64,000 bases of DNA from Massilia sp. Root351 (GTDB lineage Bacteria > Pseudomonadota > Gammaproteobacteria > Burkholderiales > Burkholderiaceae_D). A program made the position numbers and the translations under genes. Below, piece by piece: positions 4,296 through 42,210 of the stretch. The notes under the pieces are model-generated. The model saw only the letters and a program-made list of their open reading frames with translations, searched no databases and had not been told where the DNA came from. Where the stretch lies: contig NZ_LMDJ01000032.1 of NCBI RefSeq assembly GCF_001425045.1, positions 63,126-127,125 on the forward strand. The letters are read 5' to 3'. The first letter of the stretch is position 1. The number at the start of each line of letters is the position of its first letter.

Positions 4296-6095
4296 ATGAG
4301 CACAGTGGAAGTCAAAGTCCCCAACATCGGCGACTTCGCCGAAGTTGAAGTGATTGAAGTGATGGTCAAGGTCGGCGATACGATCAAGGTCGACCAGTCG
4401 CTGATCACCGTCGAATCGGACAAGGCCAGCATGGAAGTGCCTTCGTCGCACGCCGGCGTGGTCAAGGAACTGAAGGTCAAGCTCGGCGACAAAGTGAAGG
4501 AAGGCGTTGTGCTGCTGGTGGTTGAGGAAGCCGCCGGCGCAGCCGCCGCAGCCGCACCTGCTGCTGCGCCTGCGGCCGCAGCTCAGGCACCGGCCGCCGC
4601 AGCGGCTCCGGCTGCTGCCGCACCGGCCGCACCGGTCGCCGCCCCAGCCGGTGGCAGCTATGCCGGCCAGGTCGACATCGACTGCGACATGATGGTGCTG
4701 GGCGGCGGTCCTGGCGGCTACTCGGCTGCCTTCCGCGCTGCGGACCTGGGCATGAACACGGTGATCGTCGAGCGTTACGAAACGCTGGGCGGCGTGTGCC
4801 TGAACGTGGGCTGCATCCCGTCGAAAGCGCTGCTGCACGTGGCTTCCGTGATCGACGAAACCGCGCACATGTCCAAGACCGGCGTCACCTTCGCCAAGCC
4901 GACCATCGACATCGACCAGGTGCGCGCCTACAAAGAAGGCGTCATCAAGAACATGACCGGCGGCCTGGCCGGCATGGCCAAAGCCCGCAAGACGCAAGTC
5001 GTTACCGGTGTCGGCCAGTTCCTGAGCGCGAACCACATCGAAGTCACCGCCAAGGACGGCAGCAAGAAGGTTGTCCAGTTCAAGCAAGCCATCATCGCCG
5101 CCGGTTCGGCGGTTGTGAAGCTGCCGTTCGTGCCTGAAGATCCGCGCATCGTCGATTCGACCGGCGCGCTGGAACTGCGCCAGATCCCGAAACGCATGCT
5201 GGTCATCGGCGGCGGCATCATCGGCCTGGAAATGGCCACCGTCTACTCCACCTTCGGCGCGCGCATCGACGTGGTCGAAATGATGGATGGCTTGATGCAA
5301 GGCGCCGACCGCGACGCGGTCAAGGTCTGGCAGAAGTTCAACGAGAAGCGCTTCGACAACATCATGACCAAGACCAAGACGGTCGCGGTCGAGGCCCTGC
5401 CGGAAGGCATCAAGGTCACCTTCGAAGCAGCGGAAGCCGGCGCCACCGCGCCAGCCCCGCAGGTCTACGACATGGTGCTGGTGGCCGTTGGCCGCAGCCC
5501 GAACGGCAAGAAGATCGCCGCCGACAAAGCCGGCGTGATCGTCACCGACCGCGGCTTCATCAACGTCGACAGCCAGATGCGCACCAACGTGCCCAACATC
5601 TTCGCCATCGGCGACCTGGTGGGCCAGCCGATGCTGGCGCACAAGGCGGTGCATGAAGGCCACGTTGCGGCAGAAGCGGCGGCAGGCCAGAAGTCGCACT
5701 TCGACGTGAAGGTGATTCCATCGGTGGCCTACACCGATCCGGAAGTGGCATGGGCCGGCATCACCGAAGACGAAGCGAAAGCCAAGGGCATCAAGGTCGA
5801 GAAGGGCCACTTCCCTTGGGCAGCGAGCGGCCGCGCCGTGGCCAATGGCCGCGCCGAAGGCTTCACCAAGCTGCTGTTCGACGCTGAAACGCACCGCATC
5901 ATCGGCGGCACCATCGTCGGCACGCACGCCGGCGACATGATCGGCGAAATCGCGCTGGCCATCGAAATGGGCTGCGACGGCACCGACATCGGCAAGACGA
6001 TCCACCCGCACCCGACCCTGGGCGAGTCGATCGGCATGGCCGCCGAAGTGTACGAAGGCGTCTGCACCGATCTGCCGCCACCGCGCAAGCGCTAA
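4296..6095 (+). CDS. lpdA: Dihydrolipoyl dehydrogenase, PDH E3, with N-terminal lipoyl domain
   Basis: FAD/NAD disulfide oxidoreductase that reoxidises the lipoyl groups of E2. Residues 1-78 form a lipoyl domain with lipoyl Lys43 in SDKASME, joined by an Ala/Pro linker to the flavoprotein (from about 127). The FAD motif GGGPGG (136-141), redox-active cysteines in [13 protein letters not shown] (Cys168 and Cys173), the NAD motif GGGIIGLE and the C-terminal HPHPTLGE active-site His/Glu are all present. At 599 residues it is longer than the ordinary 470-residue Lpd because of the extra domain, an arrangement known in Neisseria and Ralstonia PDH operons. The ATG follows AAGGAG and the aceF stop is 9 bases upstream. 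A strong terminator follows. Confidence 0.96.
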
Positions 6096-6104
6096 GCAGC
6101 AAAC

Positions 6105-6131
6105 AAAAAACCCGCCACGGCGGGTTTTTTT
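6105..6131 (+). terminator. Rho-independent terminator of aceE-aceF-lpdA
   Basis: An inverted repeat CCCGC/GCGGG flanked by an A-run on the left and seven T on the right, starting about 10 bases after the lpdA stop. The A/T arms extend the stem, so it could also work on the minus strand for the convergent gene at 6156. Confidence 0.9.
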
Positions 6132-6155
6132 ACACCCGCGACGCGCCTGTCCGGC

Positions 6156-6461
6156 TCATCGAAAGCCGGCAACCGAATCGTTTGCGTGAGCGCGAATTAT
6201 TTTCGTCACGCGGGGATTCTTCCTGTATTTGGCGCTTAGCTGCTCAAGTTGTTTTTGCGCAGTCTGGCAGTGCTTGACGACGGACCGCTCGATTTCCCGC
6301 TGCCGCTTTTCGCTCAACCCGCCGTCAAACTCTCCCGCAAAATGTTCGCAAGCGTTGGCGTTACGTATGAATGCCTGCACATCCTGCGGAGTTGTGTTTT
6401 TGGCGAATACGGTTGCGGGGGCCGATAGGCACGCAAGCAGGACCACTGTTTTAATCCTCAT
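6156..6461 (-). CDS. Small secreted protein, candidate periplasmic immunity partner
   Basis: 101 residues with a clear Sec signal (MRIKTVVLLACLSAPATVFA, cleavage after AFA) and an approximately 80-residue mature part rich in charged residues. Two cysteines occur in ACEHFAGE and KHCQTAQ. The mature part, with spacing ACEHFAGEFDGG...KHC, resembles a family of short periplasmic proteins of unknown function that I recall from proteobacterial accessory regions; I cannot name a Pfam entry. It lies 15 bases downstream of an M15-like peptidase gene on the same strand and has its own GGGGGAG ribosome site, so the two are probably co-translated. A cytoplasmic-looking cell-wall hydrolase followed by a tiny periplasmic protein is the usual layout of an effector/immunity pair; that role is inference. 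Local base composition is visibly more AT-rich than the neighbours. Confidence 0.75.
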   Translation of the reverse strand: MRIKTVVLLACLSAPATVFAKNTTPQDVQAFIRNANACEHFAGEFDGGLSEKRQREIERSVVKHCQTAQKQLEQLSAKYRKNPRVTKIIRAHANDSVAGFR

Positions 6462-6476
6462 TGCTCCCCCCTCGTA

Positions 6477-7091
6477 TTAGCGTCCGTTGTTCGACCAGTG
6501 AGGGACATCACGGCCGCCACCACCGTATTTCTTCACGCCATATGTGGCGCCGATTTCGATCAACTGCCGATTCATTCCGGTACGAGGCATTGTTCTGATC
6601 GTTACCAACTTGCCGTTTGCGTCCTTCACTGAAACTGTTCCATGCCAGGACAGCGACATGTCTATTGCCAGGCCCAAGTTATGTTGGGAGCGAAGCGCGG
6701 GTCTCGTGCGCAGTCGGCGTATCGACAGCGCACCGACCATGTCCTCTGCTGCCCGCACTGTGTCGGCACCTGCCGGATGCTGCCATTCGATATCCACGCC
6801 TCCCATGGCAGGAATCGAGCTGACGTCGGCTTTGTCATTCACGATGCGCCAAGCCCAATGCATCAGGTCGTATCGTTTTGTGGGCCGGTATGTGGCATCC
6901 ATTTTGACCCTGATGCCGGCTTCAGCCATGGCGGCTATAAAATCTTCCACGGCATGACGGAAAGTGCCGCTAAGGTCACTGGTGCCTCTACTGCCTGGAA
7001 AGCGTCGCGCCCATTGCGCGCCGCTTAATTCCTTGCCAGCTCGATTTTCATGCGCACTTGCCTGCTTGCGCGCGAGATGGCTTGTCGCCAT
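6477..7091 (-). CDS. M15-like (D-Ala-D-Ala carboxypeptidase/endolysin type) peptidase
   Basis: 204 residues without signal peptide or membrane segment. Zinc-peptidase signatures of the M15/VanY fold are visible: YRP at 68-70, SQHNLGLAID (Ser135, His137, Gly140, Asp144 of the SxHxxGxAxD motif) and a C-terminal PHW (His198) that would supply the last metal ligand. These enzymes cut peptidoglycan stem peptides. The lack of an export signal in a cell-wall hydrolase implies delivery by another route, such as type VI secretion or phage lysis; no phage genes are near. A GGAGG ribosome site lies just before the ATG. The downstream small secreted gene makes an antibacterial effector/immunity pair the most economical reading. 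The alternative is a domesticated endolysin. Confidence 0.8.
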   Translation of the reverse strand: MATSHLARKQASAHENRAGKELSGAQWARRFPGSRGTSDLSGTFRHAVEDFIAAMAEAGIRVKMDATYRPTKRYDLMHWAWRIVNDKADVSSIPAMGGVDIEWQHPAGADTVRAAEDMVGALSIRRLRTRPALRSQHNLGLAIDMSLSWHGTVSVKDANGKLVTIRTMPRTGMNRQLIEIGATYGVKKYGGGGRDVPHWSNNGR

Positions 7092-7200
7092 GTCGAACCT
7101 CCATTTTTCGGCTTAGCGCGCCGATGTCGGTGGAAGTTCAAAGCCTAGCGGGGGGCGTGGTTCAGGGCGTTGATCCCGGCCAAGCTAAGCGCTCAAAGGT

Positions 7201-7626
7201 TCAACGGGCCATCGCCGAAGCGGGCAGGCCGAATACCCGGTCGAAGGTCCAGCTGAAGATGAAGGTGTAGACCATGAAGAAGATCACCAGGCCCAGGTCC
7301 AGCACGAAGGCGTCCCACAGCGACATGTTCAGCCACCACGCGAACAGCGGCACCAGCACCAGCACCAGGCCACCCTCGAAGCCAAGCGCGTGCGCCACCC
7401 GGCGCTTCACGCTGCGGCCGCGCGTGGCCTGGCGCGCTTCCCACGCTTCGAACAGCGAGTTGTAGATCAGGTTCCACACCACCGCCGTCAGCGACGAGCC
7501 CACGGCGGCAATGCCCGCGTGCCCGGCGTCGTGTCCGCCCAGCAGCATCAGCGCGCTGCTGGTGAGGCCGACGGCGATCAGTTCAAACAACGACACGTAG
7601 ACGACTTTTCGCTTGATTCCTTGCAT
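7201..7626 (-). CDS. PACE-family (AceI-like) multidrug efflux transporter
   Basis: 141 residues with four hydrophobic segments arranged as two tandem bacterial-transmembrane-pair repeats, beginning MQGIKRKVVYVSLFELIAVG. The conserved acidic residue in the first helix (FELIAV) and the WNLIYNSLFEAWEAR loop are family hallmarks. The family exports biocides such as chlorhexidine and short diamines across the inner membrane. It is divergent from a LysR-type regulator with 83 bases between the chosen starts, the same arrangement as aceI and its regulator aceR. The physiological substrate cannot be told from sequence. Confidence 0.9.
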   Translation of the reverse strand: MQGIKRKVVYVSLFELIAVGLTSSALMLLGGHDAGHAGIAAVGSSLTAVVWNLIYNSLFEAWEARQATRGRSVKRRVAHALGFEGGLVLVLVPLFAWWLNMSLWDAFVLDLGLVIFFMVYTFIFSWTFDRVFGLPASAMAR

Positions 7627-7709
7627 GGCTTTCCCCTTGATTCAGTGGCGCCATGGTATCGATGTTTTTTTGATTGAAAAAGTCGACAGCCATCAGTTTT
7701 TCTGACAGT

Positions 7710-8630
7710 ATGTGGCGTATGGCTTTCTCCAGCGACAACGTCGCCATCTTCCTTGCCGTGCTCGACCACGGCTCATTTTCTGCGGCGGCCCGCACGCTGG
7801 GCCGGGTGCCGTCGGCCGTCAGCATGGCGGTGGCGCAACTGGAAGCGGAACTCGACCTGCAGCTGTTCGAGCGCAGTTCGCGCAACGCCCGCCCGACCGA
7901 GATGGCGCGCGCGCTGGAAGCCGAGGCGCGCCAGATGGCCGGCCAGCTGCGCCGCCTGCAGGCGCACGCCTTGTCGCTGCACCGGGGCCTGGAGCAGCGC
8001 CTGACGCTGGCGATTGCGCCGGAACTGTTGTCGGCGCCGTGGAGCCATCCGCTGGCGCGGCTGGCGGAGGAATTCCCGTCGCTGGAGGTCGAGGTGCGTT
8101 CGGCGCCGCAGGCCGACGCGCTGCGCATGCTGCACCAGGGCGAGGCCCAGCTGGCGCTGATCTACGAGCGCCAGCGGGTGGACGAGCGCGAGGATTTCCA
8201 GGAGTTGGGCAGCGAGGTGCTGGTGGCGGTGATTTCGCCGCAACATCCGCAGGCACGGGGCCGCAACGGCAGTTTCCGCTGGGAAGACCTGGTCGACATT
8301 CGCCAGATCGCCATCGCCAGCCGCGACACGCAGGCGCAGGACGAACGCATCCTCATCTCGCGCAAGGTATGGCGCACCGACAGCCACCTGGCCACGCTGG
8401 GACTGGTGCAGGCGGGACTGGGCTGGGCTTACCTGCCGAAACGGCTGGCCGCGCCGCTGGTGGACGCGGGCGAGCTGCTCGGCATCGGCTTCGAGCACAT
8501 GAGCAACCAGGTGCGGCTATGGGTGGATGTGGTGTGGCTGAATGACAAACCGCTCGGCCTGGGGGCCAAGCGGCTGATCGCCCTGATGAAGGATATCTCG
8601 GGGCTGGAGGCGCGCCCGGCGCAGGACTAG
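7710..8630 (+). CDS. LysR-family transcriptional regulator, divergent from the PACE pump
   Basis: An N-terminal winged HTH (VAIFLAVLDHGSFSAAARTLG, recognition helix around SAVSMAVAQLE) is followed by a LysR substrate-binding domain. I chose the ATG at 7710, 306 residues; an in-frame TTG further up would add 12 unlikely residues and the ATG at 7719 is equally possible. There is no good ribosome site for any of them. Position and orientation suggest it controls the efflux gene at 7201-7626 in response to the exported compound, an inference from the AceR/AceI precedent. Confidence 0.88.
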   Translation: MWRMAFSSDNVAIFLAVLDHGSFSAAARTLGRVPSAVSMAVAQLEAELDLQLFERSSRNARPTEMARALEAEARQMAGQLRRLQAHALSLHRGLEQRLTLAIAPELLSAPWSHPLARLAEEFPSLEVEVRSAPQADALRMLHQGEAQLALIYERQRVDEREDFQELGSEVLVAVISPQHPQARGRNGSFRWEDLVDIRQIAIASRDTQAQDERILISRKVWRTDSHLATLGLVQAGLGWAYLPKRLAAPLVDAGELLGIGFEHMSNQVRLWVDVVWLNDKPLGLGAKRLIALMKDISGLEARPAQD

Positions 8631-8643
8631 GCCGGGCGGCGGA

Positions 8644-8931
8644 TTACTTGGTGCGGTATTTCTCGAAGTTCACTTCGAAGTCGCCGAAGTTATCGTTCAG
8701 CATCTTCTCGTGTTGCTCCTTGTAGTACTGGATGGCAGCGTCCTTCTGTTGGGCGAAGGCTTCCTGGTTGCCGGTCGAGACAGCCAGCATATAGGCGTTG
8801 AAACGGGTGGCCGCGAACAGGATGGCCGGGCCGATGGTGTTGCGGTCCAGGGTCTGGGCCTTGTCGTTGGCCAGGTTGATGAAGGCGTCGACAAGTTGCC
8901 AGAATTGTTCGTCGGAGGTAGGGGTAGTCAT
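8644..8931 (-). CDS. DUF3144 family protein
   Basis: 95 residues, all helical and soluble in appearance. The central segment FINLANDKAQTLDRNTIGPAILFAATRFNAYM is typical of the DUF3144 family, and the C-terminus (HEKMLNDNFGDFEVNFEKYRTK) fits too. The family is widespread in proteobacteria with no known function. It converges on the LysR gene with 13 bases between stops and no obvious terminator. It is probably monocistronic. Confidence 0.85.
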   Translation of the reverse strand: MTTPTSDEQFWQLVDAFINLANDKAQTLDRNTIGPAILFAATRFNAYMLAVSTGNQEAFAQQKDAAIQYYKEQHEKMLNDNFGDFEVNFEKYRTK

Positions 8932-9040
8932 GGATGTCTCTGGAAATAATTTAAACGAGTGGGCATCCTGCCACGAATCGGCGCATTAGTCGAGCGGCGG
9001 CGCGCGCAGGCGCCGCCTTGTGGACGGCCGGCGCGGCAGG

Positions 9041-9646
9041 CTAGCCGTATTTCACCGAGCAGCCGTAGGGCTGGGTCACCGGCTTGCTGACCGGCTTGCC
9101 TGCGGTGGCCTCGTCGATGGCTTGCACCACGTAGTTGCTGGCGCCGGGGATATCGGCGGCGTTGGCGCTGGGCTTGCTGTCGATGGCGCCGGCGTACACC
9201 AGCTTGCCGGCCGGATCGATCAGGTACATATGCGGCGTGGTGCGCGCGCCATAGGCGCGGCCGATCTTGCCGCTGTCGACCAGGATGGCGTTGGCCGTGG
9301 CCTTCTTCTCCTTGGCCCAGCTGGCCAGCGACGCCGCCGCTTTCGGGTCGCCGTCCGGCGCGGCGCTGGTGCTTACCGACAGCCACACCACCTGCTTGCC
9401 GGCCGCGTGCTTCTGCGTGTTTTGCATATTGCCGCTGTTGTAGTGCTTTTGCACGAAGGGGCAGTCGGGATTGACCCATTCGAGTACCACGTATTTGCCT
9501 TTCAGGCTGTCCAGCGAGACCGCCTTGCCGGCCGTATCCACCCCGGTGAACAGCGGGGCGGGCTGGCCCACCACCGCTTGCGCCATGGCCAGTGCGCTGC
9601 CCGTCAAACCTGCGATCAATGCTGCTGTCAACGTCAGGGTTTTCAT
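9041..9646 (-). CDS. Periplasmic redoxin (thioredoxin-fold, AhpC/TSA-like)
   Basis: 201 residues with a signal peptide (MKTLTLTAALIAGLTGSALAMA). The thioredoxin-fold core has a peroxiredoxin-like NPDCPFVQKHY with Cys62 as the only reactive-type cysteine in the core, and RTTPHMYLIDPAGKLVY further on, where TPH is the cis-Pro loop. A second cysteine lies near the C-terminus (YGCSVKYG). It is the third gene of an apparent operon, 16 bases downstream of the DsbD-like reductase, which could supply electrons to it in the periplasm. It may reduce peroxide or protein thiols; sequence alone does not decide. Confidence 0.88.
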   Translation of the reverse strand: MKTLTLTAALIAGLTGSALAMAQAVVGQPAPLFTGVDTAGKAVSLDSLKGKYVVLEWVNPDCPFVQKHYNSGNMQNTQKHAAGKQVVWLSVSTSAAPDGDPKAAASLASWAKEKKATANAILVDSGKIGRAYGARTTPHMYLIDPAGKLVYAGAIDSKPSANAADIPGASNYVVQAIDEATAGKPVSKPVTQPYGCSVKYG

Positions 9647-9662
9647 GCGATTTCCTTTCAGG

Positions 9663-11915
9663 TCAGAGTTGGTTTAAAGCCGTCCTTACTTGTTCCACCG
9701 TCAGCAGTTCGGACAGCAACTGCGGCGGGGCGTCGCCGGGGGCGTACAGCGCGTACACCGGCACCCCGTTACGGCCCAGCCGGGCCAGTTGCTGCGTGAT
9801 GGCCGGATCGCGGCGGGTCCAGTCTGCGCGCAGCAGTACTACGTTCCTGGCCTCGAAGTCCGCCAGCAGGCTGGCATCGGCCAATGCCGCCCGCTTGTTG
9901 AATTGGCAGGTGACGCACCACGCGGCGGTGAAGTCGACGAACACCGGCTGGCCTGCCGCGCGCGCTTGCGCCACTGCCGTTTCGGACCAGGCGGACCAGC
10001 GCGCGCCAGCCAAGGATGCGCTCTTCGCGCCATTCGCTGCGCTGTTGGCCGCCCCAACGCTGCCATCGCCGGCGCGCAGCAGCGGGCCGGCGGTGCCGAC
10101 TGCCGCCGCCAGCGTCAGCAGGCCTGCACCTCCCAGCAGCACGCGCGAGCGGGGCCGGCGCACCGGCGTGCCCAAGGTCCAGGCGGCGAAGGCCAGCGCC
10201 ACCAGCATGGCCAGTGCAGCGGTCATGCCGTCGATCCCGGTCTGCTGGCCGAGCACCCAGGCCAGCCACACCACGGTGGCGAACATGGGGAAGGCCATCA
10301 GCACCTTGAAGCGTTGCATCCACGCGCCCGGTTTCGGCAGTACGCGGGCCAGGCCCGGCCAGCAGGATGCCGCCAGATAGGGGGCCGCCATGCCGAGGCC
10401 GAGCACCACGAAGATGGCCAGCGCCTTCGGGGCCGATTCCGTTAGCGCGGCGCCCATGGCGGCGCCCATGAAGGGCGCGGTGCACGGCGAGGCCACCGCC
10501 ACCGCGAGCGCGCCGCTCAAGGCGTCGTCCAGCAGGCGGTTGCGGGCGCGGAAGCTGGCCAGCGCGCTGGGCAGCATGGTGCCGAACTCGAATGCGCCCG
10601 CCAGGTTCAGGCCGATCAGCGTGAACAGCGCGGCCAGCAGGAACACCACAAGCGGCGACTGCAGCTGGAAGCCCCAGCCCAGCTGCTCGCCGCCCGCGCG
10701 CAGGGCCAGCAGCAGGCCGGCCAGCGCGGCGAACGACAGCACCACGCCGGCAGTATAGGCAAGGCCGCCGGCGATTGCCTGATTGCGCGCCTGTTCGCGT
10801 TCGCTGCCGTGCTGCGCCAGGCTGACCAGCTTGAGCGACAGCACGGGGAACACGCAGGGCATCAAATTCAGGATGGCGCCGCCGAGGAAGGCGAACAACA
10901 GCGTGAGCAGGAAGGCGGGCGCGCTGCCGGCGGATGCCGGGACTGTTGCTGGTGCAGGGGCCGCAGCAGGGGCAGCCGCAGGGGCAGCCGCACTGGTGCC
11001 GGCCGAGCCAGGGGCGGGCCAGCCGCCAGCGATGGTGACCGGCAGCGCCCATCCTGCGGGCTGGCTGGCGGCTTTCAGGACGATGTGCAGCGCGGCGGGG
11101 CTTTCGCTGCGCTGCGCCGACAGCGGCACGCGCAGCGTGAGCAGGCCATCCGCCCAGCGCTGGTCCACCTTGGCGGCGTAATCGATGACGCCCGCGTCTT
11201 CCACCATCAGGCGCAGCGGCTGGCCTTGCGCGGCTGCGGGCAGGCCGCGAATCTCCATGGCCAGCGCCTTGCCGTCCACGCGGGCGCTGGCGCTGGCCTG
11301 CGGCAAGGCTAGCGGCGCGGCGGCGCGCGCCGCGTCGAACAGCGCCTGGTGCGCGCTGACGGGCGCGTCGACGGGGATGGTGAGGTGAAAGTCGCCTGAT
11401 TCCGGCAGGCAGATCTCCTTGCACACCAGCCATTCCGCATGCAGCTTGACGCCCAGCGTCTTGCCTGCATAGCCGGCTGGGACGGTCACCGGCACCGGCA
11501 GCAGCACGCGGCCTTCGTAGCCGTAGTTGAGCAGCGGGCCAAGCGGCAAGTGCTGCGGCGTTGGCCACGCGATCTCGCCAGCCGCAAAGCCGGGCGGCAG
11601 CGTCCAGGACAGCGTGGTCGGCAGGCCCGAGTCGCCCGGATTCTTCCAGTAGGTGTGCCAGTGCGGCTGATGCTCGATCGCCAGGCCCAGCCACAGTGGT
11701 TTGCCGGGCTGTAGGCCCTGCGGCGCGTGCGCCAGCAGCTCGGCCCGCACGTGCTCAGTGACCACGGCGGCCGTGGCTGCAGTGGCAGTAGTCGCTGCGG
11801 CTGCGCTGATGCTGGCGGCCGCTGCGGCGCTGTCGTTGGCCGCCGCAGCGCGCGCCGGTGGTGCGGACATCAGGGCGGCTGCCAGCACGGCAGCAAGAAA
11901 CTTTACGTTACGCAT
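9663..11915 (-). CDS. DsbD/ScsB-like thiol:disulfide interchange membrane protein
   Basis: About 750 residues from the ATG at 11915 (a TTG one codon earlier is less likely). Order: signal peptide, a large periplasmic N-terminal domain of the DsbD/ScsB type (to about 300), a Pro/Ala linker, eight hydrophobic segments of the DsbD/CcdA transmembrane domain (with VASPCTAPFMGAAMG and LMPCVFPVLSLK supplying the paired membrane cysteines), and a C-terminal thioredoxin domain with WCVTC. It transfers reducing power from cytoplasmic thioredoxin to periplasmic acceptors. It sits between the ECF-type sigma gene and the redoxin with 15-18 base spacers, so the redoxin is a likely acceptor. The linker contains short GCAGGGGCAGCC DNA repeats, a low-complexity Ala/Pro tract. 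Confidence 0.92.
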   Translation of the reverse strand: MRNVKFLAAVLAAALMSAPPARAAAANDSAAAAASISAAAATTATAATAAVVTEHVRAELLAHAPQGLQPGKPLWLGLAIEHQPHWHTYWKNPGDSGLPTTLSWTLPPGFAAGEIAWPTPQHLPLGPLLNYGYEGRVLLPVPVTVPAGYAGKTLGVKLHAEWLVCKEICLPESGDFHLTIPVDAPVSAHQALFDAARAAAPLALPQASASARVDGKALAMEIRGLPAAAQGQPLRLMVEDAGVIDYAAKVDQRWADGLLTLRVPLSAQRSESPAALHIVLKAASQPAGWALPVTIAGGWPAPGSAGTSAAAPAAAPAAAPAPATVPASAGSAPAFLLTLLFAFLGGAILNLMPCVFPVLSLKLVSLAQHGSEREQARNQAIAGGLAYTAGVVLSFAALAGLLLALRAGGEQLGWGFQLQSPLVVFLLAALFTLIGLNLAGAFEFGTMLPSALASFRARNRLLDDALSGALAVAVASPCTAPFMGAAMGAALTESAPKALAIFVVLGLGMAAPYLAASCWPGLARVLPKPGAWMQRFKVLMAFPMFATVVWLAWVLGQQTGIDGMTAALAMLVALAFAAWTLGTPVRRPRSRVLLGGAGLLTLAAAVGTAGPLLRAGDGSVGAANSAANGAKSASLAGARWSAWSETAVAQARAAGQPVFVDFTAAWCVTCQFNKRAALADASLLADFEARNVVLLRADWTRRDPAITQQLARLGRNGVPVYALYAPGDAPPQLLSELLTVEQVRTALNQL

Positions 11916-36169: not shown

Positions 36170-36928
36170 TTACTTCAATTCGTTTGCTATCACTGCACTG
36201 GTCCTGCGCATCCGCCATTCCAGCAATAAGGCCAGTACGCCGCAGAACGCGAACAGGCCGCCGAGGTACTGCAGCACCTTGTTGGCGGGCGAGCGCACAT
36301 AGCGCACCCCCGCCAGTTCGAACTTGCGCCGTCCGTTCCCGGCGTCTTCGAAAAACACGCTGCCCCGGTCGCCCCAGAATTCCACGGTCATCAGCCGCAC
36401 CCGGGACGCCTCGAACTCGGCCAGCTGCCGGGCATGCTCTTCGCGGCCGATGGTGTTGGCGGCCAGCTTCAGGTCCTGGATCTGCTTGAACTGGTCAAAC
36501 ACATTGTCTGACTCGTTCTTCAGGATCACGCCCCTGGAAACATATTTGTACTGGTTGTTGGCCGAGAAAATGCCGTCGTTGGCCGCCAGCATCAGCGCGA
36601 AGCCCAGTGCGCAGGCAGAGGCCGCGCCGAACAGCCACTTGCGGGCGTCGTGCACGCGCCGCGTCACGCTGCCCTCCAGAAACTGGCTAACCTCCGGGAT
36701 ATGGCGCAGCGAGGAGTGCAGCACCTTGCTGTCGATGCCGTTCAGGAACTCGGCGGGAGTCAGCTCCAGCGCTTTCACGACCGCGCTGAACATGTCCGCC
36801 GACGGCTGCGATTTGTCGTTTTCGAGTTTGGACAAGTAGGACTGCTCAATGCCGATCGCCGCCGACAGTTGCGGCTGCGTGAGGTTTTTGTCCGTTCTCA
36901 GTTGTTTGAGCCGCTCGCCGAAGTTCAT
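36170..36928 (-). CDS. Membrane-anchored XRE-family regulator
   Basis: 252 residues. The N-terminal Cro/C1-type HTH covers about 1-62 (MNFGERLKQLRTDKNLTQPQ, then IGIEQSYLSKLENDKSQPS). Two hydrophobic helices follow (about 98-116, WLFGAASACALGFALMLAA; and about 219-237, VLQYLGGLFAFCGVLALLL), with a roughly 100-residue extracytoplasmic domain between them. The layout fits a one-component sensor that binds DNA from the membrane. It is divergent from the Dyp/glycyl-radical fusion gene. Phased GAATA repeats in the spacer are candidate binding sites. An AAGGA ribosome site precedes the ATG. Confidence 0.85.
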   Translation of the reverse strand: MNFGERLKQLRTDKNLTQPQLSAAIGIEQSYLSKLENDKSQPSADMFSAVVKALELTPAEFLNGIDSKVLHSSLRHIPEVSQFLEGSVTRRVHDARKWLFGAASACALGFALMLAANDGIFSANNQYKYVSRGVILKNESDNVFDQFKQIQDLKLAANTIGREEHARQLAEFEASRVRLMTVEFWGDRGSVFFEDAGNGRRKFELAGVRYVRSPANKVLQYLGGLFAFCGVLALLLEWRMRRTSAVIANELK

Positions 36929-36983
36929 TGATTCCTTACCTTTCTGGGAATGTTATGGGGCATATTCTTGGGGATTCGTGCAT

Positions 36984-37035
36984 GAATTAGAAGATGAATA
37001 TGCAGGAATATTGCAGAATATGTAATGAATAGGCA
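36984..37035. promoter_or_regulatory. Phased GAATA direct repeats between the XRE regulator and the fusion gene
   Basis: Copies GAATATGCA (36996), GAATATTGCA (37006), GAATATGTA (37016) and GAATAGGCA (37027), plus a weaker GAATTAG at 36984, recur every 10-11 bases, one helical turn. An inverted copy (CATATTC) lies at 36961-36967. The spacer of 233 bases is markedly AT-rich and otherwise shows no gene. Confidence 0.6.
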
Positions 37036-37161
37036 AAAATGTGTCGTCACTGCAATAAAGCTAGTAACCGGCAGTGACAATAAGTGAGATTGTTGGTCGC
37101 CTGGCGCCGGTAGTATCTGGCAACACCCAGCCGCCAGATCGCCTTTTCTGAAGGAAATTCC

Positions 37162-40100
37162 ATGTCCGAACTAGCCGTCCGCCATGCTCAATACGGGTTG
37201 CTTACCCGTGCCGTTTTTGGCCAGATCGTTACCATCACGCTGCGTGACCGCAGTCCGGCCACCCGGCCTGCGCTGCTGGCGGCGGTGCGCGCGCTGGCGC
37301 ACACGGCGCACGCCGCCGGCGGCAACGCCGGCCTGATCGCCGCCTTCGATCCGGGGCTGTGGGGCAGTTGGCACGACCGCCACATTCCGGTGGAACGGCG
37401 CGTACTGGACGCCTTCTCCAAGCTGGCCGACACCGGCGGCGATGTGCTGCTGTATGTGAAAGCGGACAGCGTGTCCGCCGCCGCGCAGCTGCTGGAGGGC
37501 GTGCGCGGCGCGCTCGACGCGCTGGCCGCGCAGATCGAGGTGCAGCCTGTGGGCAAGCGGCCGGACGGCAAAGTGATGGCGGGGCGCTACCTGGACGGCA
37601 TCACCAACCCCAATGACCCGGTCAACCTGGCCTCCGACATCCTGACCGGCGGTGCTTTCCCCGGTGCCTGCTTCGGCTTTACGCAGAAATTCCTGTTCGA
37701 CTGGGACAGCATCGGCGCCATGCGGCCAGACGCGCAAGACGCCATGCTGGGTCGTAATCCGGCCGGCGCCATCCTGCCGCAGCACGACGCCGATGCGCAC
37801 ATCCACCGGGTCCACATCAAGGACGCCAACGGCGACAACCGCAAGCTGCTGCGCCAGGCGCTGCCGTTCGGCACCGAGGACGGCAGCGCGGCGCGCGAGA
37901 AGGGCTTGATGTTTGTGGCCTTCTGCAACGAGCAGCCGCGCTTCGAAGCCATCCTCGGCCACATGATGGGCGACGTGCCGGGCCGCCCGGTGGACCGCCT
38001 GATGAGCGTGGTGCAGGGCGTGGCGGGCAGCTACTGGTACGTGCCCAATGCGCAGGAGCTGGACGTGCCGGCGGCCACTATCGACGACGTGCAGGAAGAT
38101 CCGCATTGGCAGGTGCGCAGCGCCAACGGCTATATGTTCTACAACTCGCAGGATTATCTGCACCAGATGAGCGAAGGGCGCTACATTGGCGGCGATGCAC
38201 CCGGCCCGCGCATGCTGGCCCTGCTGGGCCGCGCGTTCTCGCACTGGAGCGATGGCTGGCTGGAACGCACGCCGTTCCCGCGCCTGCCGCACCTGTCCAC
38301 GCTGGCGCCGGCTGCGGACATGGGCAGATCTGTGATGGTGCGCAAGGGCCTGGCCAACCAGGCCACGCTGGGCGGCCTGTTGTCCGACCCGGCATCCGCG
38401 CTGGCGCGCGACAACAATCTGCTGCGCATCCATGCCGAGGAACTGGTGGTCGGCGTGCTGCCGGACTTCACGCTGGGCCGGGGCAAGGAAGTGATGCCCT
38501 ACCTGAGCGAGGAGGAAACCATGGCGGGCTGGCTGGGCGGCCAGGTCAACGAATGGTCGGCCATGGGCCACATCGTACCGGGCTACCAGAAGCTGGTGAC
38601 GCTGGGCGTGGCAGGGCTGATGCGCGAAATCGGCGCTGCCGCCGACACTGTCGCCGCCAGGCTGCGCCGGCAGCCGGACGACGCGGCCCTGCTGGCGCAG
38701 GCCGACTTCCATGCCTCCGCGCTGGCTTCGCTCAGCGGTGTGCAAGCCTACCTGGGCAACTGGGCGCGCGTCGCCGACGCCGCCGCGCCGGCGGGCGCGC
38801 AGGGCGACAACCTGCGCGAGGCGGCGCAGCGCCTGCGCCGCCTGCGCGAGGAAGCGCCGTCCAGTTTCCTCGACGGCGTGCAGCTGGTGTTCTCCTTCCA
38901 CTGCTGCTTGCACCTGGTGGGCGAGCTGACCTCGTTCGGCCGCCTGGACCAGATCCTGGCGCCGCTGCTCGAGCGCGATAATATCGCCACCGAGCGCGCG
39001 CAGGAAATCATCGATTGCCTGTGGCTGAAGATAGGCGAGAACGCCTTCGTCAACCGCGGCGCCATCACCGACTACGTCACTTACGGCACCACGGCGGTAT
39101 GCGGCACCGGCGGCAATTTCCCGCAGGGCGGCGGCATCAACCAGTGGGTGCAGCAGATCACGGTGGGCGGCTATGTCGCCAACGACGATCCGGTCCCGAC
39201 CGGCGGGGCCAACGCCGTCACCATGCTATGCCTGAAGGCGGCACGCCGCATCCCGGTCAACGCGCCCACGCTGTCGCTGCGCGTGTACCGCGACATGCCG
39301 GCCGAATACCTGGACGAGGCGGCGCGCTGCGTATTGGCCGGCGGCGCCCATCCCATCCTGTACCAGGACGACCGCCTGTGCCAGGCCTTGCGGCAGTCCG
39401 GCGTGAACGGCAGCGTGTCGCTGAAATGGTCGCGCGACTACGCGGCCGACGGCTGCTACGAGCCGATGCTGGCAGGCGCCACCGCCTTCTCGTTCAACAA
39501 CGTCACGCCCATGGCGGCGCTGGAGCAGACCTTGAACCAGGGCGCCACTTACGGCGCGGCCGGGCCGGTGTACCTGCGCGGCCTGAAGCAGACCTTCCGC
39601 TCGCCGCCTGCGGACCAGATCACCAGCTTCGTCATGCTGACCGATATCTTCCTGAAACAGCTGGAATGGCTGACGGTGCAAAGCTACAACGTGATCCTGC
39701 AGAACTTCGGCAACCTGGCCGCATATTGCCCCAGCCCGCTGCTGTCGACGCTGATCGAAGGCTGCGTGGACAGCGGCACGGATCTGACCAATGGCGGCGC
39801 CAAATTCAACATGATCGCGCCGCTGTGCGTGGGCGTGTCCAATACCATTGATTCGCTGTACGCCATCCGCGCCATGGTGTTCGACCCGGCCACCGCCGTC
39901 ACCACCTTGCCGGAACTGGTGGACTGCCTGATCAACGACTGGGGCAGCACCATGATCGAGCCGTACCAGAGCGAGCTGCTGGGGCCGGCCGACGCCGGCG
40001 AGCGCGGGCGCCGCTACCAGGAGCTGCGCGAGATTGCGCTGGCGCTGCCGAAGTGGGGCGCGGGGAATGCCGAGGTGGATGAACTGGGGCAGTGGATGAT

Positions 40101-40683
40101 CGAACGCATGGTGCACACTTGCGTCGACGTGATCCGCAACCCGCGCGCGCTGAAAGGCGCGCTGGATAACATCACGCAGAAATTCGGGCCGATCGAATTC
40201 GTGGTCACGCCCGGCATCGGCACCTTCGAAGGCTATGTCGGTGACGGCCTGGGCTGCGGTGCGTCGGCCGACGGCCGGCGCAACGGCATGCCGATCGCCT
40301 CCGACCTGTCACCCGCGCCCGCGCCGCAAGACCTGCCGCCGGCGCCCGCCTTCCGCAACATCTACCAGTCGCTCAGCAGCGTGGACTTCGACGCCGTCAA
40401 CTTCGGCCTGTCGAACGCCTCGCCGGTGGACATGAACATCAAGGAAGACTTCCCGCTCGAGCAGCTGCGCCAGTTCGTGCGCGCCTACGCGCGCGGCGAA
40501 ACCGGCTCCAACCTGATCACGCTGACCTGCGCCGACCTGGCCACCTACCAGGCGGCGGCGCTGGACCCGGAACGTTACGACCTGGTGCGGGTGCGCATGG
40601 GCGGCTGGACCGAGTTCTACGCCGCCATGTTCCCGGCCCACCAGGCGCAGCACCAGCGGCGCCAGTACTTCACGCCGGACTAG
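37162..40683 (+). CDS. Fusion of Dyp-type heme peroxidase and glycyl-radical enzyme (PFL/eliminase-like)
   Basis: 1173 residues, no signal peptide. Residues 1-305 are a Dyp-type peroxidase of the B/YfeX kind: YLDGITNP holds the distal Asp145, AHIHRVHI holds the proximal heme His213, and LLRQALPFG holds the distal Arg231; the domain ends SYWYVPN. A joining region (305-415) leads into a glycyl-radical-enzyme domain (about 416-1173). It has GHIVPGYQKL, GRLDQILAPLLERD, the active-site loop DGCYEP (Cys765, Glu767), GTDLTNGGAKFN, and the C-terminal radical loop VRVRMGGWTEFYAAMF with Gly1148 where PFL has RVSGY. Both catalytic sets are thus retained. The loop has Trp where Tyr or Phe is usual. Glycyl-radical enzymes need a radical-SAM activase, and none is encoded in this window. 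AAGGAA precedes the ATG. It seems to be a single-gene unit divergent from an XRE regulator. The substrate is unknown. Confidence 0.88.
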   Translation: MSELAVRHAQYGLLTRAVFGQIVTITLRDRSPATRPALLAAVRALAHTAHAAGGNAGLIAAFDPGLWGSWHDRHIPVERRVLDAFSKLADTGGDVLLYVKADSVSAAAQLLEGVRGALDALAAQIEVQPVGKRPDGKVMAGRYLDGITNPNDPVNLASDILTGGAFPGACFGFTQKFLFDWDSIGAMRPDAQDAMLGRNPAGAILPQHDADAHIHRVHIKDANGDNRKLLRQALPFGTEDGSAAREKGLMFVAFCNEQPRFEAILGHMMGDVPGRPVDRLMSVVQGVAGSYWYVPNAQELDVPAATIDDVQEDPHWQVRSANGYMFYNSQDYLHQMSEGRYIGGDAPGPRMLALLGRAFSHWSDGWLERTPFPRLPHLSTLAPAADMGRSVMVRKGLANQATLGGLLSDPASALARDNNLLRIHAEELVVGVLPDFTLGRGKEVMPYLSEEETMAGWLGGQVNEWSAMGHIVPGYQKLVTLGVAGLMREIGAAADTVAARLRRQPDDAALLAQADFHASALASLSGVQAYLGNWARVADAAAPAGAQGDNLREAAQRLRRLREEAPSSFLDGVQLVFSFHCCLHLVGELTSFGRLDQILAPLLERDNIATERAQEIIDCLWLKIGENAFVNRGAITDYVTYGTTAVCGTGGNFPQGGGINQWVQQITVGGYVANDDPVPTGGANAVTMLCLKAARRIPVNAPTLSLRVYRDMPAEYLDEAARCVLAGGAHPILYQDDRLCQALRQSGVNGSVSLKWSRDYAADGCYEPMLAGATAFSFNNVTPMAALEQTLNQGATYGAAGPVYLRGLKQTFRSPPADQITSFVMLTDIFLKQLEWLTVQSYNVILQNFGNLAAYCPSPLLSTLIEGCVDSGTDLTNGGAKFNMIAPLCVGVSNTIDSLYAIRAMVFDPATAVTTLPELVDCLINDWGSTMIEPYQSELLGPADAGERGRRYQELREIALALPKWGAGNAEVDELGQWMIERMVHTCVDVIRNPRALKGALDNITQKFGPIEFVVTPGIGTFEGYVGDGLGCGASADGRRNGMPIASDLSPAPAPQDLPPAPAFRNIYQSLSSVDFDAVNFGLSNASPVDMNIKEDFPLEQLRQFVRAYARGETGSNLITLTCADLATYQAAALDPERYDLVRVRMGGWTEFYAAMFPAHQAQHQRRQYFTPD

Positions 40684-40722: not shown

Positions 40723-42201
40723 TCAGCGCTTGCCGTCCGGACCGGCCATGCCGCTGGCCGCACCGCTGGCGCGCGCCAGGCTTGAGCGCGCGCCGGCCAC
40801 GGCCTGCAAGCGCTCCTGCAGGTAGGCGCTCAGGCGCGGATGCTGGCTGAAGGCGACGTTGAAGCGGATGTGGCGGTCCGGCGTGTCGTTCGCCGAGAAG
40901 GCGGCGCCGCGCATCAGCAGGATCTTGTTGCGGTAGGCGTCCTGCACCAGCAAGTCCACGTCCAGCCCTTCCGGCATGGTGCCCCACAAGAACAGGCCGG
41001 CGTCGCCGGGCTGCTCGAACAGCACGCCCGCCGCGCTCAGCTGGCGCGTGCTGGCGTTGCGCGCCGCCATGATCTTGCGCTGCAAGCGGTCCAGATGCTT
41101 GCGCAGGCCGCCGGCCCTGAGTACTTCCAGCAGCACGTATTCGTTCAGCGCCGGCGTCGTCATGATGGAATGGATCTTGGTGCGCATCAGCACCTTGAGC
41201 AAGCCCGGCGCGGCGGCCAGGTAGCCCATGCGCAGGGCAGGGCTGAGCGCCTTGCAGAAGCTGGAGTAGTAAATCACGCCGTCCAGCCCGGACAGGGACG
41301 CCAGCCGCGTGCTGTGGCCTTGCTGGAAATGGCCGTGCACGTCGTCCTCGGCGATCAGGAAACCGTATTGCTGCGCCAGTATCAGCAGCTTGTGCAGATT
41401 GGCCGCGCTGCTGCTCCACCCCGTAGGGTTGTGCAAGGCCGTCTGCACGAACAGCAGGCGCGGGCGGTGCTCGCGGCAGGCGGCCTCCAGCTCGTCCAGG
41501 TCCAGGCCATCCGGGCGGCGCTTGATCGGCACCAGCCGCATGCCGTCCTGGCGCAGCCGGCCGAACATCAGGAAGTAGCCAGGGTCCTCCACCAGCACGG
41601 TGTCGCCGGGCTGCAGAAAACTGCGGCAGATCAGGTCGATCGCATGGGTGCTGCCAAAGGTGGTGAGGATATGGCCGGCGTCGAAGGACGCGCCGATGCC
41701 ACGCAACAGCAGCGCGATCTGCTCGCGCAGTTCCGGCAGCCCCTGGGGCGGACAGCGCGAGGCCATGCCTGCGGCGCTGCGTGACAAGGCCTTTTGCACG
41801 GTGGCGGCCGGCACCGCATCCTGCAGCCAGGTGGGCGGCAAGGCGCCGCTGCTGGCCAGCAGGATGCCGCTGCGCTGATCGTTCGATTGCTGCGCCAGCC
41901 AGACCGGCTCCTGCTCTTCGCCCGCTTCCAGCGCAACCTCGTCGGGAATCGACCTGGCGGCGTCGTTGGTGGAGCACACGAAGAAGCCCGCCGTGCCATG
42001 CGTATCGATCACGCCCGCCGCCACCAGCCTGTCGTACGCCGCCACCACGGTGTTGGTGCTCACTGCCAGCTGGGTGGCGAGCTGGCGTATCGATGGCAGC
42101 TTGGCGCCGCCGGGCAAGGCCCGGCTTTCGACCATATGGCGCAGCTTGGTCTCAATCTGCTTGGACAGGGCAATGGGCGAGGAACGGTCAATGGAGAACA
42201 T
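40723..42201 (-). CDS. MocR/PdxR-type regulator (GntR HTH fused to aminotransferase fold)
   Basis: 492 residues from the ATG at 42201 (a TTG two codons upstream is less likely). The N-terminal GntR winged HTH (SKQIETKLRHMVESRALPGG, SIRQLATQLAVSTNTVVAAYDRLVA) is followed by a fold-type I aminotransferase domain with the PLP lysine in SFCKALSPALRMGY and the NPTGW motif. These regulators sense PLP or amino compounds. It lies 9 bases downstream of a LysE-family exporter on the same strand, so it probably regulates that exporter and itself. Confidence 0.93.
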   Translation of the reverse strand: MFSIDRSSPIALSKQIETKLRHMVESRALPGGAKLPSIRQLATQLAVSTNTVVAAYDRLVAAGVIDTHGTAGFFVCSTNDAARSIPDEVALEAGEEQEPVWLAQQSNDQRSGILLASSGALPPTWLQDAVPAATVQKALSRSAAGMASRCPPQGLPELREQIALLLRGIGASFDAGHILTTFGSTHAIDLICRSFLQPGDTVLVEDPGYFLMFGRLRQDGMRLVPIKRRPDGLDLDELEAACREHRPRLLFVQTALHNPTGWSSSAANLHKLLILAQQYGFLIAEDDVHGHFQQGHSTRLASLSGLDGVIYYSSFCKALSPALRMGYLAAAPGLLKVLMRTKIHSIMTTPALNEYVLLEVLRAGGLRKHLDRLQRKIMAARNASTRQLSAAGVLFEQPGDAGLFLWGTMPEGLDVDLLVQDAYRNKILLMRGAAFSANDTPDRHIRFNVAFSQHPRLSAYLQERLQAVAGARSSLARASGAASGMAGPDGKR

Positions 42202-42210
42202 GGCCAAAGT

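Follow-up and report, generated by a model that had tools for sequence, protein, structure and literature searches.

A Dyp-type heme peroxidase fused to a glycyl-radical enzyme in Massilia: a possible peroxide-driven radical start in hosts that mostly show no activase

As generally described, glycyl-radical enzymes (GREs) owe their activation to a radical-SAM partner enzyme and are held under anoxia, and their genes are typically found near the gene of that activase (PMC11528403). A fusion of a heme peroxidase to such an enzyme was described in 2016 in the fungus Chaetomium cochliodes, where an N-terminal B-type Dyp-type peroxidase (DyP) is followed by a C-terminal PFL/GRE domain, and its significance was called 'elusive' (PMC5041501). 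The same paper grouped the fungal protein with fused bacterial proteins and inferred a transfer from proteobacteria to ascomycetes. Here we analyze a bacterial fusion of this kind, encoded by one gene at 37162-40683 (+) of a 64,000 nucleotide stretch of Massilia sp. Root351 (contig NZ_LMDJ01000032.1), which as a whole we call the window. The GRE clade to which this protein belongs shows no activase in most of its hosts, has its catalytic Cys and radical Gly preserved and occurs linked to heme peroxidases, which raises the question of whether peroxide and heme can make the radical of a GRE. To our knowledge every known GRE relies on a partner radical-SAM enzyme for its activation and is kept under anoxia.

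The gene is a single open reading frame (ORF) of 1173 amino acids that runs from ATG to stop with no interruption. An earlier note on this DNA had proposed a DyP and a GRE in one frame, and this is confirmed by the ORF and by its Pfam and NCBIfam domains. A complete DyP domain (residues about 1-305; 37162-38076, +) shares one chain with a GRE half (about 310-1173). The Pfam scan places Dyp_perox_C on residues 143-297 (E=5e-19) and the PFL-like barrel profile PF02901 of the GRE superfamily on residues 461-996 (E=1.1e-94), so two of the domains that the note expected were found, while the third, Gly_radical, gives no match at E 0.001. TIGR01413 (Dyp-type peroxidase) matches residues 87-299 with 103.1 bits, slightly above its cut-off of 100.5, and the GRE subfamily model TIGR01774 reaches 153.3 bits, under its cut-off of 678.2. 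In whole-genome searches of the 7.2-Mb genome, PF02901 and TIGR01413 each match this gene alone.

The DyP half covers nearly all of a solved DyP, with residues 22-304 aligned to 18-305 of the 315 residues of 7yzt. The closest solved structures are 7yzt, 5de0 and encapsulated DyPs, followed by YfeX and DypB, and from these relatives we take the domain to be of the B type. The residues named in the note were all found where it put them: Asp145 of the GxxDG motif (37594-37596, +), His213 (37798-37800, +), Arg231 (37852-37854, +), DGCYEP with Cys765 and Glu767, GTDLTNGGAKFN, and RMGGW at 1145-1149. His213 is presumably the proximal heme ligand, and we take Asp145 and Arg231 to be the distal acid and the distal arginine. 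The domain thus resembles B-type DyPs such as 5de0, YfeX and DypB in its coverage, its His, its Arg and its GxxDG acid, and it differs from them in the added GRE. The fungal DyP was also labelled DyP-B (PMC5041501).

The catalytic barrel and glycyl-radical domain occupy residues 461-1173 (38542-40680, +). Cys765-Tyr766-Glu767 (39454-39462, +) holds the catalytic Cys and the acid/base Glu, and the radical site falls by alignment on Gly1148, which with Trp1149 lies at 40603-40608 (+). Both Cys765 and Gly1148 align with the catalytic Cys and the C-terminal radical Gly of canonical GREs. The alignment refines the placement of the radical glycine to the latter Gly of MGGW, at position 837 within the GRE half, in a loop that has Met where the published motif RVXG[FWY] has Val. 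A structure model of the GRE half (14 rows, mean pLDDT 53.8) served for fold matching only and not for distances. From about residue 343 this low-confidence model superposes on known GRE structures, and its top VIA-align matches are glycerol dehydratase with Z 20.4 (1r8w), followed by propanediol dehydratase with 20.2 and choline TMA-lyase with 19.7. Class Ia ribonucleotide reductase (RNR) alpha chains gave Z 5.5-6.1, a level which may reflect a common arrangement only. The glycerol and propanediol dehydratases and CutC (1r8w, 5i2a, 5kdp) are also the best sequence matches, and they share the GRE barrel, Cys-x-Glu and the C-terminal radical Gly with the fused protein. All NCBIfam equivalog cut-offs were missed by a wide margin (CutC with 102.4 against 1050 bits, HypD, sulfopropanediol dehydratase, formate C-acetyltransferase, HPAD and indoleacetate decarboxylase). 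An elimination reaction of the dehydratase/lyase kind is suggested by Cys-x-Glu and by the structures closest to the model.

Homologues with the same fusion, which the note had proposed to search for, do exist. The searches yielded 16 distinct fused proteins. They are spread over several Pseudomonadota families, and an Asticcacaulis plasmid and a single 'viral' contig (IMG/VR) each carry a distant fusion. In what follows L### stands for loci and G### for genomes of the comparison set, with G000 being the genome of the window. Two duplicates were removed before the count (L032 is the genome of L007 and L036 that of L001), the handles G375/G561 and G369/G587 having identical coordinates within each pair. 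A peptide-pattern scan of 84,980 species genomes returned at least 7 full-length relatives with 69-76% identity. The spread is patchy: whole-genome searches, with the own genome counted each time, found the fusion in 2 of 369 class genomes, 7 of 392 family genomes (in 3 of 44 genera) and 2 of 398 phylum genomes. Among the 392, no match was seen in the other genomes of the window's genus (20 by name), and G994 is the only one of the 29 genomes of its own family to have the fusion.

Despite this spread, His213, Arg231, Cys765, Glu767 and Gly1148 are identical in all 16 proteins, Asp145 is Asp in 14 of them, and the radical Gly stays invariant when five viral-contig GREs are added to the alignment. 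Four distant members have 38-40% identity overall, with the GRE half (42-46%) being better conserved than the DyP half (26-29%). The joining stretch (residues about 306-460; 38077-38541, +) lies largely within the GRE half and has an RSxNGxxxYN motif in 15 of the 16. Near residues 305-415, where the note had allowed for two genes falsely joined by a sequencing error, the close relatives are 65-74% identical and the four distant members 32-38%; the same fusion with this stretch conserved in independent assemblies rules out such a join.

What sets the fusions apart is that most of their hosts show no detectable activase. Of the 16 canonical GRE loci examined, 15 had an activase at a distance of at most about 5 kb: 9/9 plasmid loci (hand-picked from the listed matches and not all independent), 4/5 chromosomal loci from a search of 303 class genomes, and 2/2 in Andreprevotia. 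The nine plasmid GREs also differ from the fusions in having no DyP gene annotated beside them. The sole canonical locus without an activase, L117, has Ser in place of the catalytic Cys. Run over 17 fusion or pair loci, a profile built from 11 activases found none at E up to 0.1; the flanks were short on one side of L005 (1.5 kb), downstream of L089 (0.4 kb) and at L091 (about 3 kb). This profile recovers 10 of 11 control loci, those ten activases being in its training set.

At the genome level, a second PFL-like gene is absent (PF02901) in 11 of 13 fusion genomes, counted from 15 handles including two duplicates and with G994 left out. TIGR02494 is over its cut-off in none of 9 fusion genomes, with 127-128 bits in the two Andreprevotia and at best 26 in the other seven. 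In the same number of fusion genomes TIGR02493 at E up to 1e-6 finds no PFL-type activase, the best match having 59 bits; its matches in four of them are NrdG2 (G000 and G587), QueE (G179) and AmmeMemoRadiSam (G994). All Fer4_12 matches at E up to 0.01 in the 11 genomes without a canonical PFL could be placed by an NCBIfam scan or a BLAST cluster, and none is a PFL-type activase: they are MoaA, NrdG2, PqqE, HxsB, HxsC, QueE, EpmB, KamA-like, NirJ and quinohemoprotein-maturase-like proteins. In the window's genome 6 of 6 were placed by scan, and its NrdG2 gene adjoins NrdD, the anaerobic RNR. Taken together, no PFL-type radical-SAM activase was detected in 12 of the 14 fusion genomes, and the fusion loci show no nearby cognate activase of the kind that usually marks an activase-dependent system. 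The remaining two, both Andreprevotia, have a PFL activase beside an ordinary PFL, and some weak matches in them were left unplaced. This differs from Chaetomium cochliodes, for which a putative PFL activase was reported (PMC5041501).

A related GRE is found beside a separate DyP gene. On a plasmid of Hymenobacter cellulosilyticus two ORFs make up a GRE of the same clade, and a gene for a Dyp-type peroxidase comes after them. In this plasmid record (L084, 8929-12268 and downstream) the DyP is frameshifted, and the break in the GRE may be a frameshift as well; errors of assembly, decay into pseudogenes or a genuine split could each account for this. In a GRE tree in which long branches meet and exact joins are unsure, the Hymenobacter GRE (first ORF only) groups with the fused GREs, the window's GRE half included, against 11 canonical GREs with support 100/100, and the fused 16 form one group with 97/95. 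By its best solved relatives the Hymenobacter DyP resembles the EfeB/deferrochelatase type, unlike the fused DyPs; its truncated ORF scores 91.9 bits with TIGR01412 against a cut-off of 428. As the DyP type is a different one, this GRE clade may have been joined with DyPs twice, once fused to a B-type and once paired with an EfeB-like one.

The clade also has its own residues. The residue after the catalytic Cys is Tyr in 16/16 fused proteins and in Hymenobacter, with C, Y and E all being invariant there, and is Val, Ile or Leu in 11/11 canonical rows. The residue after the radical Gly is Trp in the same 16/16 and in Hymenobacter, versus Tyr in 10 of the 11 canonical rows and Cys in L117. His584, Trp362 and Trp662, the latter in an insertion, likewise separate this clade from the canonical GREs.

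The earlier note had offered two roles for the fusion: protection of the radical domain by the peroxidase, or action of both domains in sequence on one substrate. With no PFL-type activase detected in most fusion genomes, a pairing with a second DyP type and aromatic residues beside Cys and Gly, a third role can be added, in which the peroxidase initiates the radical. The simplest reading of the DyP linkage, the missing activase, the retained Cys, Gly and Glu and the adjoining aromatics would be that a peroxide-oxidized DyP heme starts the GRE radical. Compound I would form when H2O2 or a peracid meets the heme, and the oxidizing equivalent would travel via aromatic residues to Tyr766/Cys765 and/or Trp1149/Gly1148. 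A thiyl radical on Cys765, stored at Gly1148, would then begin the substrate chemistry with Glu767 as the acid/base. The fused protein would belong to the Cys-x-Glu (dehydratase/lyase) branch of the superfamily and work as a radical enzyme on its own, with its initiator built in, and the DyP, in substituting for the radical-SAM activating enzyme, would open GRE chemistry to hosts without an activase under some oxygen or peroxide. All of the chemistry here is inferred: that heme is bound and peroxide used, that a radical is transferred and in which direction, what the substrate is and that a glycyl radical forms.

RNRs show by analogy that a radical can be started by an oxidant built from O2. 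Their classes use differing Cys oxidants that yield the same thiyl radical, and class I employs a metal-based oxidant built from O2 to form it in the catalytic subunit (PMC8463856). Class I differs in its metal site and shows no sequence kinship with the fusion, for which the radical transfer is a proposal. We consider it quite possible, if short of probable, that the peroxidase generates the GRE radical from peroxide and so replaces the activase. The more general proposal of a new radical start, in which a peroxide-driven heme peroxidase that is fused to or paired with the GRE takes the place of the radical-SAM activase, and which may have arisen twice, is a shade more tentative. If true, oxygen might no longer bar the use of GRE chemistry, and GREs would have an oxygen-side counterpart as class III RNR has in class I, an evolutionary parallel between the two superfamilies. 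The note's remark that the pairing is paradoxical and has no characterized member still stands, though the fusion was reported from sequence in 2016 (PMC5041501). Within the open-access literature searched, no paper treats fusion hosts without an activase, the pairing with a second DyP type or the residue signature, and the passages of PMC11528403 on GREs do not name peroxidases; as far as this literature goes, these three points are new and the fusion itself is known.

Several points weigh against initiation by the peroxidase. Glycyl radicals are stable under strictly anoxic conditions (PMC11528403), and the window's genome encodes the anaerobic RNR NrdD/NrdG2, because of which the host probably meets anoxia; this leaves room for an ordinary anaerobic role. 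The putative activase of Chaetomium counts here as well (PMC5041501), as does the PFL activase of the two Andreprevotia genomes, which could act in trans. A very divergent activase would escape our profiles, the count of 12 of 14 includes G994, which was covered by TIGR02493 alone, and Asticcacaulis and Hymenobacter were covered through their plasmid records only. Four fusion genomes (L039, L041, L042 and L043) share a radical SAM/SPASM protein that is quinohemoprotein-maturase-like; the two copies scanned score under the cut-off of that family. Asp145 is replaced by Glu in two of the 16 fused members (L083 and L089), which is also a difference from B-type DyPs. The canonical comparison set is small, its 11 rows including the near-identical L087 and L088, and Trp1149 alone is not diagnostic because RVXG[FWY] permits Trp after the Gly (PMC11528403). 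The second pairing is a single plasmid locus with a frameshifted DyP, and the full-chain AlphaFold model (8 rows, mean pLDDT 38.9) yields no heme-to-Cys distance.

The main rival is that the GRE is activated in trans by a radical-SAM enzyme, be it NrdG2 or a divergent or unrecognized activase, and that the DyP merely clears peroxide near the radical site. The retention of every GRE catalytic residue, NrdG2 in the window's genome and in G587, the Andreprevotia PFL activases, the anaerobic RNR of the host and the activase reported for Chaetomium (PMC5041501) all fit this. Peroxides induce the Chaetomium fusion gene, H2O2 3-fold and peroxyacetic acid 18.5-fold (PMC5041501), which is compatible with initiation and with protection alike. 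We regard trans-activation as somewhat unlikely, since G492, G505, G561, G576, G592, G372, G373 and G374 yielded neither NrdG2 nor PFLA and the NrdG2 of the window's genome adjoins NrdD. A guarding DyP would also leave in place O2, the usual killer of glycyl radicals, when it removes peroxide.

Alternatively the protein could be a two-step catalyst, the DyP oxidizing a substrate and the GRE acting on the product or in the reverse order, with each half activated separately. Fusions of consecutive pathway enzymes are common and the DyP active-site residues are retained, yet the GRE would still be without an activase, no neighborhood is common to all copies, and the Hymenobacter GRE pairs with a different DyP type; we find this unlikely. 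Less likely again is a radical-dead GRE half that serves the peroxidase as a binding scaffold or substrate channel. Most hosts have no detected activase, and L117, the relative without one, has lost its Cys, so such decay does occur; against this stand Cys, Glu and Gly, which are invariant in 16/16 at identities as low as 38%, and the better conservation of the GRE half in the four distant members. That two genes were joined by a frameshift, or by an assembly or annotation artefact, is next to impossible with the full-length fusion recurring in 16 distinct sequences from independent assemblies. Nothing favors it for the fusion itself, although the Hymenobacter frameshift shows that such errors occur.

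The fused gene stands alone in the window. On its upstream side lies a divergent helix-turn-helix gene (36170-36928, -) and on its downstream side a convergent gene of the MocR type (40723-42207, -), both from ORFs and the domain scan. AAGGA at 37151-37155 (+), read directly in the sequence, is a likely ribosome-binding site. No sigma-70-like promoter was found in 36900-37200, and a search upstream of 9 copies of the fusion gave no FNR- or OxyR-like box that came within 1 mismatch; two sites that resemble FNR boxes with 2 mismatches lie at L004 and L005. A recent foreign origin of the window's copy is not supported, as its GC at third codon positions of 0.894 is inside the range of six neighbors, with the overall GC of 0.681 at the top of their range.

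Comparing the loci, no neighbor gene is common to all fusion copies. An MFS transporter gene lies near the fusion in L007 and L094, with similar ORFs in L093 and L095 that were seen by likeness only. In L002, L003 and L005 there is a secreted-looking gene that we take to be a histidine phosphatase by its look; Pfam gives no match for the L002 copy. Nothing was found that points to the lignin-derived substrate suggested by the note. The other suggestion, a choline-like compound, finds a weak hint in phospholipase-family or DUF2608 genes near some copies: a phospholipase C family protein in L001 and beside the copy of G179, and a PLD-like protein in Hymenobacter. This pattern is too patchy to claim a substrate.

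Some of the compared loci are worth describing on their own. L117 (G275, 5774-8257) is a GRE homologue with Ser for Cys and an RIGGC loop, without an activase in its 15-kb stretch or by TIGR02493, and is decayed or repurposed; the gene beside it has what we take to be the look of a TonB-dependent receptor. L087 and L088 (both 6542-9917) have a canonical GRE with its activase on plasmids of Acinetobacter and Moraxella, genera held to be strict aerobes. The contig of L089, filed as viral, has a full 1303-aa fusion at 6867-10778 and ahead of it an ORF (5940-6503) that presumably encodes a transposase, and this contig is probably bacterial DNA. DUF2608 genes adjoin the fusion in G179 and G994, directly downstream at L090 (10973-11926) and L091 (2042-3034); they are 48% identical in distantly related genomes, as if the fusion and DUF2608 were a mobile two-gene cassette.

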